The notes below the pieces were generated by a model. That model saw nothing but the letters and a program-made list of their open reading frames with translations, was not told where the DNA came from and did not search any database. DNA of 64,000 bases. Source: Fodinibius saliphilus. GTDB taxonomy: Bacteria > Bacteroidota > Rhodothermia > Balneolales > Balneolaceae. The translations under genes and the position numbers were made by a program. Every line of letters starts with the position of its first letter. Within the stretch, counting starts at the first letter, position 1. The DNA lies in the NCBI RefSeq assembly GCF_005869845.1, contig NZ_VAWF01000001.1, positions 1,178,001-1,242,000 on the forward strand, read 5' to 3'. Positions 21,894 to 43,993 of this stretch are shown piece after piece.

Positions 21894-21978
21894 GCCCGAG
21901 TGGCGGAATTGGTAGACGCGCCGGATTCAAAATCCGGTGGCCATTGCGGTCGTGTCGGTTCGAGTCCGACCTCGGGTA
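21894..21978 (+). tRNA. tRNA-Leu (anticodon CAA)
   Basis: The acceptor arms GCCCGAG (21894-21900) and CTCGGGT (21971-21977) pair with one G-T wobble, followed by discriminator A. The D arm contains GGAATTGGTAGAC. The anticodon arm CCGGA-TTCAAAA-TCCGG gives CAA, reading UUG. There is a class II long variable arm and a GGTTCGAGTCC T arm. The CCA end is not encoded. Confidence 0.95.
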
Positions 21979-37858: not shown

Positions 37859-39043
37859 ATGAATATAGATAAGCTTCGAAACCAGACCCCCGGCACTTCT
37901 CATGTGATCCATTTTAATAATGCCGGAGCTTCTTTAATGCCCTCTACTGTTTCTGAATCTGTTATATCCTTTCTCAAAAAAGAAACATTACGAGGTGGAT
38001 ATGAAACTGCAAATAACTACCGAGACCAGATTGACCAAGTTTATCCAGTTATCGCAACTTTCATTAATGCAACTCCCCAGGAAATAGCTCTTCAAGAAAA
38101 TGCAACAATGGCCTGGAATATGGCTTTCTGGGCTATCGATTTTCAGCCGGGGGATCGTATTCTTACTTCAGTATCAGAATATGCCAGTAACTATATTGCC
38201 TACCTAAAGCTTCAAAAAATGATGGATATTTCGGTTGAGGTTATTCCCAATACAGATGCTGGAATGACTTCTGTAGAAGCTCTTTCATCCATGTTGGATG
38301 AAAAAGTTAAGCTGGTGAGTATTACTCATATCCCGACCAACAGCGGGCTTGTAAATTCCGTTGAACAGATTGGCGACATCATTAAGCCCTATTCCTGCCT
38401 GTATTTGGTTGATGCCTGTCAGTCTGTAGGACACTATCCCGTAGACGTAAAGAAGATCGGTTGTGATATGCTTTCGGCAACCGGACGCAAATATCTTCGA
38501 GGCCCCCGGGGAACGGGCTTTCTTTATGTCAACAATGAGATTCTTACTCAGCTAACCCCTCCTTTTCTTGATTTGCACTCTGCAGAATGGATCAAAAAGG
38601 AAGAGTACCGTGTGCGAAATGATGCACGGCAATTTGAAAATTGGGAAACCAACTATGCAGGGGTCATGGGCCTTAAAGAGGCCGTTTCATACGCTACAAA
38701 CTTGGGAATTTCTAATATTTGGAAACGCATTACAACTCTCGCCTCAACTCTCCGTAACACACTCTCTCAAATATCGAATGTATCAGTTCATGATATCGGT
38801 ACAACCCAAGGAGGTATTGTTACCTTTACGATTGATAATATATCGGCTGAATTGATACAACAAAAACTCTCCAGTAATGATATCAATGTAAGCGTCTCGA
38901 GGAAAAGCAGTACGCGACTTGATATGGAACAACGAAGTTTGGATCAGTTAATTCGAGCTTCGGTACATTACTACAATACAGAGAAAGAGATTTCAACATT
39001 TAGCGATGCCGTTCGGGCAATATCTACACAGGCTAACCCTTAA
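37859..39043 (+). CDS. Class V aminotransferase (cysteine desulfurase-like)
   Basis: A PLP enzyme of 394 residues. The pyridoxal lysine lies in SATGRKYLRGPRGTGFLYV, the substrate-side VDACQSVGHYPVD carries the conserved Asp and Gln, and the start has FNNAGASLMP. These fit the NifS/CsdA-like group that also includes isopenicillin N epimerase-like proteins; there is no clear desulfurase Cys loop that I can place, so the reaction (desulfurase, epimerase or lyase) remains open. It converges with the ABC operon, overlapping its last gene by 4 bp. Confidence 0.85.
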   Translation: MNIDKLRNQTPGTSHVIHFNNAGASLMPSTVSESVISFLKKETLRGGYETANNYRDQIDQVYPVIATFINATPQEIALQENATMAWNMAFWAIDFQPGDRILTSVSEYASNYIAYLKLQKMMDISVEVIPNTDAGMTSVEALSSMLDEKVKLVSITHIPTNSGLVNSVEQIGDIIKPYSCLYLVDACQSVGHYPVDVKKIGCDMLSATGRKYLRGPRGTGFLYVNNEILTQLTPPFLDLHSAEWIKKEEYRVRNDARQFENWETNYAGVMGLKEAVSYATNLGISNIWKRITTLASTLRNTLSQISNVSVHDIGTTQGGIVTFTIDNISAELIQQKLSSNDINVSVSRKSSTRLDMEQRSLDQLIRASVHYYNTEKEISTFSDAVRAISTQANP

Positions 39044-40830
39044 GCTGATTTTGAAGTGGGCAACAGCTCATCCTTATATTGTAATTCATACAGCTTGCGA
39101 TAGATACCATCTTCTTTTCCGAGCAACTCCTGATGGGTTCCTGTCTCCCGAATTTTGCCTTTATGCATAACTAATATTTTATCAGCACCCTGTATGGTTG
39201 ATAAGCGGTGAGCAATGACTATGGATGTTCTTCCCTCCATCATTTTATCACAGGCCTTATTAACGACTTCTTCGGTCTCAGAGTCAACACTTGACGTAGC
39301 TTCATCGAGAATTAATATATTGGGATCGTACACCATGGCGCGAATAAAACAGATAAGCTGACGCTGCCCCATCGATATTGATTTTCCCCGTTCAGCCAAT
39401 TCATAGTCAAATGTCCCGGGAAGCTTGTTAATAAAACGATCAGCTTCAATTTGATGAGCTATCTTTTTGACTTTCTCTTCTGAGATATCGGGGTTACCCA
39501 GCGTTATGTTTTCCATGATGGTACCTGAAAATAATGCATTATCCTGGAGTACCAGAGCAAAATTTGTTCGTAATTCATCGAGCTTGATTTCACGAATATC
39601 AACACCATCTAATTTTATAGATCCACTATCGATATCATAGAAACGCAATAATAAGTTAATAATGGTCGATTTGCCGGCCCCTGTAGCCCCAACGATTGCA
39701 ATAGTTTCTCCCGAATCTGCTTCAAAAGCGACTTCTTTGAGAACCGTTTCTTCATCGTTATATCCGAACCAAACATCTTCAAATTGAATACGTCCTTCTC
39801 TATTCTCAATCGTTTTGGGATCTTCCGGATCGGTAATTTCATTTTTAGTATCCAGAATATTGAAAATACGTTCTGAGGATGCCAGAGCTGACTGTAAGGT
39901 ATTAAACTTCTCTGAAAGTCCGCGTATGGGCCTAAAGAAGTCTCGAACATACTGTACAAAAGCGACCAGTATACCAAATGTCACTTCCCCTCCCATCATA
40001 GCACGCCCGCCGCCATACCATATGACTAATGCCATGGCAAGACTTGCTATAATCTCAATGGCCGGCCAAAAAATGGCAAAGTAAAAGATCGTCTCTATAT
40101 AAGCATCTTTATGTCCTTTATTGATCTTACGGAATTTTTTACGCTCGCGCTCTTCCTTATTGAAGAGCTGCACAATAGACATTCCATTGATATGCTCTTG
40201 GACAAAAGAATTAAGACGGGATATTTGGTCCCGTACCTTTAAAAAAGATACCCGTACCTTTGCTTTAAAAAGAAATGTGGCATAAAAAAGTAGTGGTAAT
40301 ACAGAAATAGCAACCAGTGAGAGCTCCCAACTCATGCTGAACATAAAGTAAAGGATAAAAAACAGGCGGAACATATCCCCGATTATGCTAACTACTCCAT
40401 CACTTAGTAGATCACTCAGTGCCTCAATATCACTGGTTGTACGTGTTATAAGTCGACCTATGGGAGTTTTATCAAAAAACTGTACGTGTAAAGACTGTAT
40501 TTTTTCAAACACAGCATTACGCATCTTAAATAACGTACCCTGCCCGAACCAGCGTGTTAAATAGGTGTTGGCGACGAGTAGAAAAAACTCTCCGACAAGG
40601 GCACCAACGAGCAGTATAATGATCCATAGTAAGCCCTCGAAATCCCTGTTTCGGATATAATCATCGATAGCAAGCTGAGTCAGCTTGGGACGTATTGTTC
40701 CCAAAAAGGCGGCACTGAGAGTCAATACAATGCCAAGCAGTACATACCACCGATATGGTCGAATAAATTGATAAAGCCGCCTAATCAGATCCGAGTCAAC
40801 GGCTTTATCATCTTCCTTATTTTTGTTCAC
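39040..40830 (-). CDS. ABC exporter half, BmrD-like (catalytic Glu, degenerate signature)
   Basis: A fused membrane and ATPase half-transporter of 596 residues, with six membrane segments and a C-terminal ATPase. Walker A GATGAGKST is at 381-389 and Walker B ends in LILDE with catalytic Glu510. The signature is ISMGQ (485-489) instead of LSGGQ. The second half-transporter at 42191 has the opposite pattern, which is the known asymmetry of heterodimeric exporters such as TM287/288 and BmrCD. So this should pair with it to export a drug, lipid or peptide. GTG start. It lies 12 bp after rnz. Confidence 0.9.
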   Translation of the reverse strand: MNKNKEDDKAVDSDLIRRLYQFIRPYRWYVLLGIVLTLSAAFLGTIRPKLTQLAIDDYIRNRDFEGLLWIIILLVGALVGEFFLLVANTYLTRWFGQGTLFKMRNAVFEKIQSLHVQFFDKTPIGRLITRTTSDIEALSDLLSDGVVSIIGDMFRLFFILYFMFSMSWELSLVAISVLPLLFYATFLFKAKVRVSFLKVRDQISRLNSFVQEHINGMSIVQLFNKEERERKKFRKINKGHKDAYIETIFYFAIFWPAIEIIASLAMALVIWYGGGRAMMGGEVTFGILVAFVQYVRDFFRPIRGLSEKFNTLQSALASSERIFNILDTKNEITDPEDPKTIENREGRIQFEDVWFGYNDEETVLKEVAFEADSGETIAIVGATGAGKSTIINLLLRFYDIDSGSIKLDGVDIREIKLDELRTNFALVLQDNALFSGTIMENITLGNPDISEEKVKKIAHQIEADRFINKLPGTFDYELAERGKSISMGQRQLICFIRAMVYDPNILILDEATSSVDSETEEVVNKACDKMMEGRTSIVIAHRLSTIQGADKILVMHKGKIRETGTHQELLGKEDGIYRKLYELQYKDELLPTSKSA

Positions 40831-40842
40831 GCTATCGAAGTT

Positions 40843-42105
40843 TTAGAATCGATCGAAATCATCAAATGGAGTACGTGGCGTAATTTGTTTTGGTTTACGC
40901 TGCGAATCATGACTGCTACTGCCACTATTGTTATTTTTCTTATCTTTTTTCTTCTTTTTCCTTCGCTTTTTCCGATCGTCGTTATTACTGCTCTTATCGT
41001 ACTTTTTTCGCGACTTCTTACCAGAATAATTCTTCCGTTTACGGAATCGTTTTTTCTTTTTTCCTTTACTTCGACGTTTCCGTTTTCTCTTGTTGGAAGA
41101 TTTGTTCTTACCGCCTTTATTCTTGTTACCGCCCTTATTATCTATTTCTTTCAGATAAACTTTGGGCTCAATAATGCCTTTTTCATGGGCAGGATCAGTA
41201 AAGATGGGTCGTAATTCAGTAGCAACCCATGTTGGGAAGAAATCATCACGAGCTTCTCGCAGTAAAACATATTCGTTGGTATAACGGGCAGAAAAGTGAG
41301 TAATAACCAGAAGCTTAGTTTTAGCTTCATTTGCAACACGCGCCGCATCTTTTGCAGTAGAATGTCCTGTTTCTTCTGCCTTGTCAGAAAGACTATTACT
41401 GAACGTTGCTTCGTGAAACAATACATTCGTATTTTTACCCAGCTTAACAGAGTTTGGGCAATACTTTGTATCAGTGATATAAGCAAAACTATCACCGGGA
41501 CGAGGATGGCCGACAATATCCATTGATTTCACAACAGTACCATCATCCAGCTCCACATCATTTCCGGCCTTCAACTCTTTATACTGCCAATCTTCGCTAA
41601 TACCCTGTTCTTGTGCTTTTTCGGCATCGACCTTTCCGGGCTTATCTTTTTCCTGAAAGCGATATCCGATACAAAATTTGGTATGGTTGAGGGGGCGAGC
41701 CTCAATATAATATTCTTCTTCATCGACGACTCGTTCTTCCTCAAACCCTTCTTCAACCTCTACATATTCAATAGGATAGTTGAGGTCGATATTGGCAAAG
41801 TCAAAATTCCATTCTACAAAATCCTGTATTCCTTCTGGACCAACAAGGGTTAATTTTCGTTCTCTTCGTTGTAATTGCAGAGTTGACAGTAACCCGATTA
41901 ACCCCGAATAATGATCTGTGTCGAAATGAGAAATAAAAATGCAGTCTATTTGTGAGCGCTTAAGCCCCCCTTGAAGCATTCTCATTTGTGTATTTTCGCC
42001 ACAATCAAAAAGAAAAACACTTCCCTCTCTCCATACTGCCACCGACGAAAGGTGACGGGTTGCTGTGGGTGTTGCTGAGGCAACTCCTAGTGGTACAATA
42101 ATCAT
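40843..42105 (-). CDS. rnz: Ribonuclease Z-like protein with very basic tail
   Basis: A metallo-beta-lactamase-fold protein of 420 residues. RNase Z matures tRNA 3' ends. The exosite-linked RPLNHTKFCIGYRF, the ITDTKYCP metal Asp, HEATF and GHSTAKDAARVA, and the final THFSARY motifs identify RNase Z. Motif II reads SHFDTDH (His60, Asp62, Asp64, His65) in place of the usual SHxHxDH, so one metal ligand is Asp. Residues 323-420 are a tail with about 40 Lys or Arg among its first 70 residues, likely RNA-binding and disordered, ending in TPFDDFDRF. It lies between two ABC half-transporter genes. Confidence 0.88.
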   Translation of the reverse strand: MIIVPLGVASATPTATRHLSSVAVWREGSVFLFDCGENTQMRMLQGGLKRSQIDCIFISHFDTDHYSGLIGLLSTLQLQRRERKLTLVGPEGIQDFVEWNFDFANIDLNYPIEYVEVEEGFEEERVVDEEEYYIEARPLNHTKFCIGYRFQEKDKPGKVDAEKAQEQGISEDWQYKELKAGNDVELDDGTVVKSMDIVGHPRPGDSFAYITDTKYCPNSVKLGKNTNVLFHEATFSNSLSDKAEETGHSTAKDAARVANEAKTKLLVITHFSARYTNEYVLLREARDDFFPTWVATELRPIFTDPAHEKGIIEPKVYLKEIDNKGGNKNKGGKNKSSNKRKRKRRSKGKKKKRFRKRKNYSGKKSRKKYDKSSNNDDRKKRRKKKKKDKKNNNSGSSSHDSQRKPKQITPRTPFDDFDRF

Positions 42106-42190
42106 CTTGGTACTCCTATGTAATTTGGGATTGAATTGCGGTCAAACAATCAATCTTGGGTTCGTTAGTTGAATGTTTACTATTTGGGTG

Positions 42191-43993
42191 TTAAATCTCA
42201 GCCAGCTCTTGTTCTATGAGTTGTTTATTATACATAACTGAGTAACGACCTTCATTTTCTAATAATTCGTTGTGAGTTCCTTGTTCTACAATAGTGCCAT
42301 CTTCTAAATAGTATATGATATCAGCATCTTTTATGGTTGATATGCGATGGCTAATCATTAAGGTTGTACGTCCTTCTAACTCATTCCTTAAATGTTGCAG
42401 AATGGCTTCTTCGGTCTTCGTATCGACCGCACTCAACGAATCATCTAATATAATAATTTTTGGATCCCGAATCAGGGCCCTGGCGATAGCAGTTCTTTGT
42501 TTTTGACCGCCCGACAGGGTTATACCTCGTTCACCTAATATAGTCTCAAATTTTTTCTCAAATTCCAAAATATTGTCCCGAACTTTTGCTTTTTCTGCAG
42601 CTACTTCAATTTCATCCTGCGATGCTTCCTGTGTTCCGAACGCAATATTTTCTCCAATAGTATCAGAAAATAAAAAAGTATCTTGTGGGACGAGACCGAT
42701 ATTTTCTCGTAAAAGCCTGACTGGTATAGACTTAATATTGATACCGTCAATTAAAATTTCACCTTCGGTAACGTCAAAAAGTCTCGGAACCATTTCTACA
42801 AGTGTAGTTTTACCACTTCCGGTACGCCCTACAATAGCAGCGTTTTGCCCTGCCTCAACCTTTAAGTTCACACCTTTCAATGCATATTCATCGGCTTCTG
42901 GGTACTTAAACGATACGTTTCGGAATTCTATTGTGCCCTCAATATCATTTATACCTTGATCAGTTTGGGCGTGGTCTTCAATATCTACCCCTTCAGTCAG
43001 AATTTTATCAATTCTCTTCCACGAAGCCATAGACTGTTGGAAACGATTCACAGTATATCCCAGTGAAGCAACAGGCCATGTCAGGTATGCTACATATACA
43101 ATATACTCCAAGATGTTCCCTACCGTAAGTTGCCCCTCTATCACCAACTGCCCGGCCTTCCAAACTACAATAACAACGGAAAGACCGATCAAGAGATTTA
43201 GTGTAGGATGAAAAAGGGATTCTACCAGATCAAGCCTAAGCTTTTTTTTCCGATATGATTCACTCTCATCTTCAAATCGCTGTTGTTCATACTCTTCCCT
43301 ATTATAAGCTTTAATCAGTCGAACACTGGAAAAGGACTCCTTGGCTCGTCCGGCTATCGTGGAATATTGCTCCTGTATTATGCGAGAATAATCATTGATA
43401 TATCCACTTACCCAATATGCAAAAACAGAAAGAAAGGGAAGCGGTAAAAGGGCCCACATCGTCAACTCAGGGCTAACAATAATCATCATCGTTATGATAA
43501 ACCCCATGCGAGTTAATGTATTTATGGTATACATGTAGGCAGGGCCAAAATACTCACGTACTTTAGAGACGTCTTCAGTAGCCCTTACGTATACTTCTCC
43601 GGAACTGTATTTACTGTAAAACCGCTGGGGAAGCTCCAGCAATTTATCAAAAATATCATTTCGTAAATCAAACTCAATTTTGCGAGATGCAACAATCAGA
43701 GTTTGCCGAGTAGCAAAAAGCAGTATTCCAGACAGTAATACTGCTCCTACCAAGAACAGAGCATTTTTAGCCAGGGGCCAACTTGCTGAACTGTAAAAAA
43801 GTACCCCAACAATACTGTCATACGCCTCTGGTGATTTCTCAAGATCTACCTCCGAAATTTGGTCTACCGTACGACGAAGAAATACCGGTATCCACACCAA
43901 GAAAAAGTTTGATGCGGTAAGAAAGAGCGAACCAAATATAATGGTACCCTTATATTTTTTAAAATAGGTATTAAGTTTTCGAAGAGAACCCAC
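42191..43993 (-). CDS. ABC exporter half, BmrC-like (Asp in Walker B, canonical signature)
   Basis: 600 residues, membrane domain then ATPase. Walker A GRTGSGKT is at 389-396, the signature LSGGQKQR at 493-500, and Walker B ends IIILDD with Asp518 where the catalytic Glu should be. It therefore contributes a degenerate ATP site and an intact signature, and complements the 39040 product, which has the Glu but a degenerate signature. Together they should form one heterodimeric exporter with one consensus and one degenerate site. The start is GTG. It follows the flavoprotein gene by 46 bp. Confidence 0.92.
   Translation of the reverse strand: MGSLRKLNTYFKKYKGTIIFGSLFLTASNFFLVWIPVFLRRTVDQISEVDLEKSPEAYDSIVGVLFYSSASWPLAKNALFLVGAVLLSGILLFATRQTLIVASRKIEFDLRNDIFDKLLELPQRFYSKYSSGEVYVRATEDVSKVREYFGPAYMYTINTLTRMGFIITMMIIVSPELTMWALLPLPFLSVFAYWVSGYINDYSRIIQEQYSTIAGRAKESFSSVRLIKAYNREEYEQQRFEDESESYRKKKLRLDLVESLFHPTLNLLIGLSVVIVVWKAGQLVIEGQLTVGNILEYIVYVAYLTWPVASLGYTVNRFQQSMASWKRIDKILTEGVDIEDHAQTDQGINDIEGTIEFRNVSFKYPEADEYALKGVNLKVEAGQNAAIVGRTGSGKTTLVEMVPRLFDVTEGEILIDGINIKSIPVRLLRENIGLVPQDTFLFSDTIGENIAFGTQEASQDEIEVAAEKAKVRDNILEFEKKFETILGERGITLSGGQKQRTAIARALIRDPKIIILDDSLSAVDTKTEEAILQHLRNELEGRTTLMISHRISTIKDADIIYYLEDGTIVEQGTHNELLENEGRYSVMYNKQLIEQELAEI

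Follow-up and report, generated by a model that had tools for sequence, protein, structure and literature searches.

The only recognisable RNase Z of the salt-loving bacterium Fodinibius saliphilus carries aspartate (Asp62) at the position of the second metal-binding histidine of motif II, and ends in a basic, putatively disordered tail closed by a nearly fixed peptide. Together, Asp62 and the tail make this protein a natural variant of the textbook active site that appears to define the order Balneolales. We favour, with a probability of about 0.62, the reading that this is a working housekeeping RNase Z in which aspartate ligates the metal, with a tail made up of a disordered linker that binds RNA and a peptide at the C terminus that serves for docking.

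HxHxDH is regarded as the hallmark of RNase Z and its superfamily, and the enzyme is routinely crippled by mutating the second histidine of motif II. An entire order apparently living with aspartate in its only RNase Z would amount to a natural experiment on the ligands needed by the two-metal mechanism.

The sole RNase Z of the genome

The rnz gene occupies positions 40843..42105 on the reverse strand of the window, by which we mean the whole stretch of 64,000 nucleotides that was analysed. Its open reading frame starts with ATG and encodes 420 residues. The product exceeds the cut-offs of two family models, with 318.9 bits against 292.95 for the RNase Z equivalog TIGR02651 of NCBIfam and 303.9 against 252 for NF000801, and Pfam recognises beta-lactamase-fold domains and no others. 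By both sequence and structure its closest solved relatives are RNase Z from Bacillus subtilis (1y44, 2fk6 and 4gcw) and ElaC/RNase BN from Escherichia coli (2cbn), to which it is 34-36% identical. Residues 1-305 of an AlphaFold2 model of moderate quality (core pLDDT about 75) match 2fk6 with a Z score of 31.8 and chain A of 1y44 with a Z score of 31.2, the latter with an rmsd of 2.6 over 261 residues. The nearest named relative, Fodinibius halophilus, also belongs to Balneolales, and its RNase Z is 91% identical. An equivalog score above the cut-off and best matches that are solved RNase Zs thus uphold the identification made in a first-pass annotation of this DNA.

That annotation had also named a second canonical rnz as an observation that would overturn its view of the gene. 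No second full-length RNase Z was found when the whole genome (3.6 Mb, 98.7% complete) was searched, and a further rnz is ruled out by the remaining metallo-beta-lactamase proteins, which score 27-72 bits against the cut-off of 293 and belong to other families. Score, fold, sole copy and conserved gene order identify the protein, at the level of sequence comparison, as an RNase Z by descent. It is filed as a variant rather than an ordinary member because its motif II departs from HxHxDH and because it has neither PxKxRN nor the GP motif.

Two genes predicted to encode ABC exporter subunits (PF00664 and PF00005) enclose rnz on the same strand (window 39040-43993). Domain matches and locus comparison identify the upstream neighbour at 42191..43993 and the other gene, 12 bases downstream of rnz, at 39040..40830. 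This arrangement is present in all Balneolales loci checked, and the same order recurs at two loci each of a sister family (f7) and a distant family (f17). The gene order is deeply conserved, with no obvious functional reason.

Aspartate at a metal-binding position

Motif II of the protein reads HFDTDH (residues 60-65; 41911..41928, reverse strand). It aligns without gaps to HLHGDH of the E. coli enzyme (2cbn) and HMHGDH of the B. subtilis enzyme (1y44), and alignment to 2fk6 and a survey of relatives place it in the same way. The codon of Asp62 (41920..41922, reverse strand), assigned from alignments and codon counts, corresponds to His66 in E. coli and to His65 in B. subtilis, a residue that is alanine in the RNase Z/tRNA complex 2fk6. 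The remaining metal ligands, His60, Asp64, His65, His141, Asp212 and His270, are kept. Asp34 of motif I, His141 of motif III, Asp212 of motif IV and His270 of motif V are each at least 97% conserved in 102 aligned relatives. The protein also has HEAT at residues 231-234 and HST at residues 248-250; across Balneolales, HEAT or HEST is found in 74/74 sequences and HST or HSS in 72/74.

The first-pass annotation had proposed that aspartate replaces a metal-binding histidine, and had asked whether the residue truly falls at the metal site. Alignment of HFDTDH to solved HxHxDH enzymes agrees with the proposal, and sequence and fold together place Asp62 at the ligand position. From this alignment, direct contact between Asp62 and a metal ion would be expected.

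The position is evidently sensitive, because the B. subtilis mutant H65A keeps only residual RNase activity, as cited in PMC12663964, though alanine is unable to bind metal and aspartate can do so. The natural enzyme offers a clean single-residue contrast with B. subtilis His65. Searches of the open-licence literature found no paper combining RNase Z or ComEC with HxDxDH, and none of the literature searched described the biochemistry of an RNase Z from Balneolales.

Distribution of Asp62 in Balneolales

In an alignment of 102 core sequences from Bacteroidota, which the first-pass annotation had suggested making, the residue is aspartate in 54 Balneolales and histidine in all 48 others. A DNA pattern spanning motifs I and II was also run on 129 Balneolales genomes. 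When either histidine or aspartate was allowed, 115 genomes matched, and the same 115 matched when aspartate alone was allowed. The 14 genomes lacking a match are mostly incomplete and include 2 of 84 good genomes; the pattern would miss any divergent motif I among them. Among 395 Bacteroidota genomes the aspartate pattern occurs in 53, every one from Balneolales. The suspicion that aspartate is unusual for RNase Z therefore holds (115/115 motif-matching Balneolales genomes versus 0/342 other Bacteroidota genomes).

The codons used for Asp62 in Balneolales are mixed (GAT 45, GAC 26), as expected for a residue that is maintained. Judged from these sequences, Asp62 is an order-wide Balneolales trait and not the oddity of one gene. 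All of 12 plasmid-borne RNase Zs (from Bacillota, Actinomycetota, Pseudomonadota, Chlamydiota and haloarchaea) and 13 viral-contig proteins have HxHxDH. Scans of plasmids and viruses yielded no further HxDxDH RNase Z; outside Bacteroidota, the comparison covers those proteins and the solved structures.

One genome of family f51, 88% complete, encodes a pair of similar RNase Zs with HxDxDH. Both end in DIDRL rather than DFDRF, and either a duplication or an assembly that mixes strains may account for the pair. Separately, many genomes of family f23 and several families of Rhodothermia (among f23, f6, f9 and f14) gave no full-length RNase Z match. In one f23 genome, the five tRNA genes that were read likewise lack an encoded CCA, so another pathway to the tRNA 3′ end or a divergent enzyme is to be expected in that family.

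A second substitution accompanies Asp62. Motif I reads DCGENTQ, with the codon of Asn38 at 41992..41994 on the reverse strand, where most relatives have DCGEGTQ. The residue is asparagine in 52/52 distinct Balneolales proteins and glycine in 46/48 others; a single sequence fetched later has serine. In a tree of 100 cores, built by a quick method with columns 38 and 62 masked and with SH-aLRT values as its only support, the changes from His62 to Asp62 and from Gly38 to Asn38 and the presence of the tail each map once, all to the Balneolales stem. Both loci of sister family f7 have HLHGDH and a short C-terminal end. That Asp62, Asn38 and the tail share a branch is neither replicated evidence nor proof that they depend on one another. 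Because motif I helps to choose the cleavage site in tRNase Z of Thermotoga maritima (PMC3161902), we hypothesize that the change to Asn38 could either be compensatory or affect specificity.

Asp62 might also be a neutral lineage marker, a ligand equivalent to histidine that drift fixed in the Balneolales ancestor, in an ordinary zinc RNase Z whose tail has little specific role. This requires one change on one branch, reachable by a single base (CAY to GAY), in an enzyme whose other catalytic residues are all unchanged, and Asp is reported to occur commonly at zinc sites (PMC5031224). However, the position does not otherwise vary (48/48 other Bacteroidota and 12/12 plasmid-borne RNase Zs of other phyla), Asn38 was fixed on the same branch, and the C-terminal tip described below is held at the protein level despite synonymous drift, unlike a dispensable extension. 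On balance we consider fixation by drift unlikely.

A basic tail with a conserved C-terminal peptide

The tail spans residues 323-420 (40846..41139, reverse strand) and is predicted to be disordered on the basis of AlphaFold2 pLDDT values of about 30-38 and its composition. Its 98 residues include 45 Lys/Arg (31 lysines and 14 arginines) and 8 aspartates but no glutamate, giving a computed pI of 11.6 versus 4.9 for the core. The most basic 98-residue stretch among open frames of at least 250 residues in the window overlaps the tail, with a net charge of +39 against +12 for the runner-up. An earlier remark that the tail ranks with the most basic segments of the window is borne out by this comparison. 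The same remark stressed a Lys/Arg-rich tail of 98 residues; its length and charge are real, but the part that is conserved is the last 13 residues and not the charge.

Across Balneolales, in the first set of sequences, the linker preceding this tip is 76 to 226 residues long and contains 21 to 46% Lys/Arg, with a median of 29%. Its type drifts as well, ranging between RGG repeats and poly-Lys; the Fodinibius linker has runs of Lys/Arg and no RGG repeats. A basic patch, K-R-F-R-K-R (residues 352-357; 41035..41052, reverse strand), is common to the aligned Balneolaceae. At six loci from other families of Balneolales the RNase Z tail abounds in RGG-like repeats, for instance GGGRSYDNRGGGG, which is unusual for a bacterial tRNA-processing enzyme.

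The tip, ITPRTPFDDFDRF-COOH (residues 408-420; 40846..40884, reverse strand), stands out as the constrained part of the tail from its conservation across the order and from its DNA spellings. All 54 distinct proteins of the first set have arginine at position -10 and DRF as the last three residues. Another 20 loci, selected to cover the order, retain the tip with small variation: four end in NRF or DRL, and one is truncated where its contig stops. The tip is thus found in all five Balneolales families. Since 25 identical copies of ITPRTPFDDFDRF are encoded by 24 different DNA spellings, selection appears to act on the protein. The conserved property of the tail, as far as these alignments reveal it, is thus its C-terminal peptide, and basicity and length drift.

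Docking motifs are typically built in this way, with a conserved peptide at the C terminus carried by a disordered linker that varies, and the tip accordingly predicts a new partner of RNase Z. The search for a binding partner found none. Viewed for docking on the core, the tip in a full-length AlphaFold2 model has a pLDDT of about 38, which is low confidence. The possibility of a motif common to several proteins is ruled out, because rnz is the one match in the genome both for a DFDRF-stop pattern and for the final 20 residues.

The lack of a partner would be accounted for if the tail were a nonspecific polycation that promotes association with RNA or ribosomes, and the tip a stability signal at the C terminus that is read by proteases rather than a site of docking. 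Linkers that are Lys/Arg-rich or RGG-repeat-like throughout agree with such a polycation, and the fixation of the extreme C terminus is consistent with a signal for degradation or protection. Nevertheless, the constrained stretch covers about 13 residues, including the invariant arginine at -10, whereas typical C-terminal degradation tags are shorter, and the peptide is absent from every other protein of the genome. We regard this account of the tail as rather doubtful, and continue to favour a linker that ends in a docking peptide.

tRNA 3′ ends

The 31 tRNA genes examined from this genome, of which one lies in the window (21894-21978, forward strand), all lack an encoded CCA, and a nucleotidyltransferase of the CCA-adding type is present. 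It follows that 3′ trailers have to come off before CCA can be completed. As the genome has one RNase Z, this enzyme, with aspartate at metal site 1, is most simply read as the one responsible for tRNA 3′ processing.

That Asp62 instead cripples the two-zinc RNase activity, leaving exonucleases to trim most 3′ trailers and the protein to carry out another reaction such as deAMPylation, is quite improbable: the residual activity of H65A, the removal of AMP from proteins by E. coli RNase Z (PMC12663964) and the Bacteroidota genomes without a full-length match, where the enzyme may be dispensable, speak for it, but aspartate can ligate metal where alanine cannot, the other ligands, HEAT and HST are kept order-wide, the genome has this one RNase Z and no examined tRNA gene that encodes CCA, and deAMPylation relies on the same active site and would suffer too.

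The tRNA genes share a further feature. A cytosine (C74) directly follows the discriminator in 31/31 tRNA genes of this genome, including the one in the window, and in 30/30 from six other Bacteroidota genomes (61/61), genes that in general lack CCA; pattern counts over 296 Bacteroidota genomes agree. A survey of CCA encoding describes Bacteroidetes tRNA genes as mostly without CCA, in passages that are silent on C74 alone (PMC5143459). C74 as a partner of Asp62 is ruled out, because it is equally present in those 296 genomes and in the 30/30 tRNA genes of the six others.

C74 is normally the strongest inhibitor of RNase Z (PMC3161902). The PxKxRN motif, located at about residues 13-18 and linked to rejection of CCA ends, is missing from most Bacteroidota RNase Zs read, an absence that fits pre-tRNAs carrying C74. 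Given this inhibition and the missing motif, cleavage after C74 becomes a testable idea: RNase Z may cut downstream of a C74 that is retained, or C74 may itself be a cleavage determinant. Where RNase Z cuts in Bacteroidota is a question that the phylum-wide C74 raises separately from the finding of Asp62.

A model for the Balneolales enzyme

In the housekeeping reading, the window enzyme would be the tRNA 3′-end endonuclease of the cell, in the variant form that sets Balneolales apart as an order. The carboxylate of Asp62 would still bind the first metal ion, as has been proposed for ComEC, and the two-metal hydrolytic mechanism would be kept. The metal-1 site would probably be harder and more negative; it may accept Mn, Fe or Co, or even favour them over Zn, and Asn38 perhaps compensates for Asp62. 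The tail, disordered and positively charged, would serve as a linker that increases affinity for RNA, and the fixed C-terminal peptide may dock on a partner protein and so tether RNase Z to it. The altered metal use and tight RNA binding suggested in the first-pass annotation are plausible.

A bolder version of the model, which we offer tentatively and think improbable, holds that the Balneolales enzyme is a natural non-zinc tRNase Z that uses Mn or Fe. The exchange of imidazole for carboxylate would be balanced by Asn38, and the disordered tail and docking peptide would hold the enzyme in an assembly for tRNA maturation or RNA decay.

Comparison with known systems

The protein most resembles bacterial-type RNase Z, or tRNase Z(S). 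It shares the fold over residues 1-305 (Z about 30-32), motifs I, III, IV and V, HEAT, HST, the flexible-arm region and presence in a single copy. Bacterial-type enzymes have HxHxDH, whereas the window protein has HxDxDH together with Asn38 in motif I. The CCA anti-determinant PxKxRN is replaced by PTATRH; PTAxRH occurs in nearly all Balneolales, and canonical PxKxRN is missing in most other Bacteroidota read. The arm aligns but reads GISEDW in place of the GP motif (GxPxGP), which a crude pattern detects in just 4/48 other Bacteroidota read. Bacterial-type enzymes also lack the disordered tail of 98 residues and its fixed C-terminal peptide.

Enzymes of the T. maritima and plant type (TM-type tRNase Z(S)) similarly lack PxKxRN and the GP motif, and tRNA genes of their lineages encode part or all of CCA (PMC3161902), much as C74 is encoded here. 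However, TM-type enzymes lack HEAT and HST, whereas the window protein has both and scores as bacterial-type, and C74 encoding is phylum-wide here and does not track the aspartate. A TM-type identity is ruled out by the presence of HEAT and HST, and TIGR02650, the T. maritima-type model, is not among the matches.

The metallo-beta-lactamase domain of ComEC likewise has aspartate for the second histidine of motif II (HxDxDH). A conserved aspartate (Asp573 in B. subtilis ComEC) replaces His87 of Pce and has been judged compatible with a binuclear site (PMC5031224), and the parallel with ComEC drawn in the first-pass annotation is therefore sound. ComEC identity is ruled out, since Pfam finds beta-lactamase-fold domains only, with neither the membrane nor the OB domain, and sequence and fold are those of RNase Z. 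The resemblance is best described, from these comparisons, as a parallel substitution.

The repeats seen in other families of Balneolales, GGGRSYDNRGGGG among them, resemble RGG-box and other basic disordered RNA-binding tails. In F. saliphilus, in contrast, the linker is Lys/Arg-rich without RGG, and the conserved element is the C-terminal peptide.
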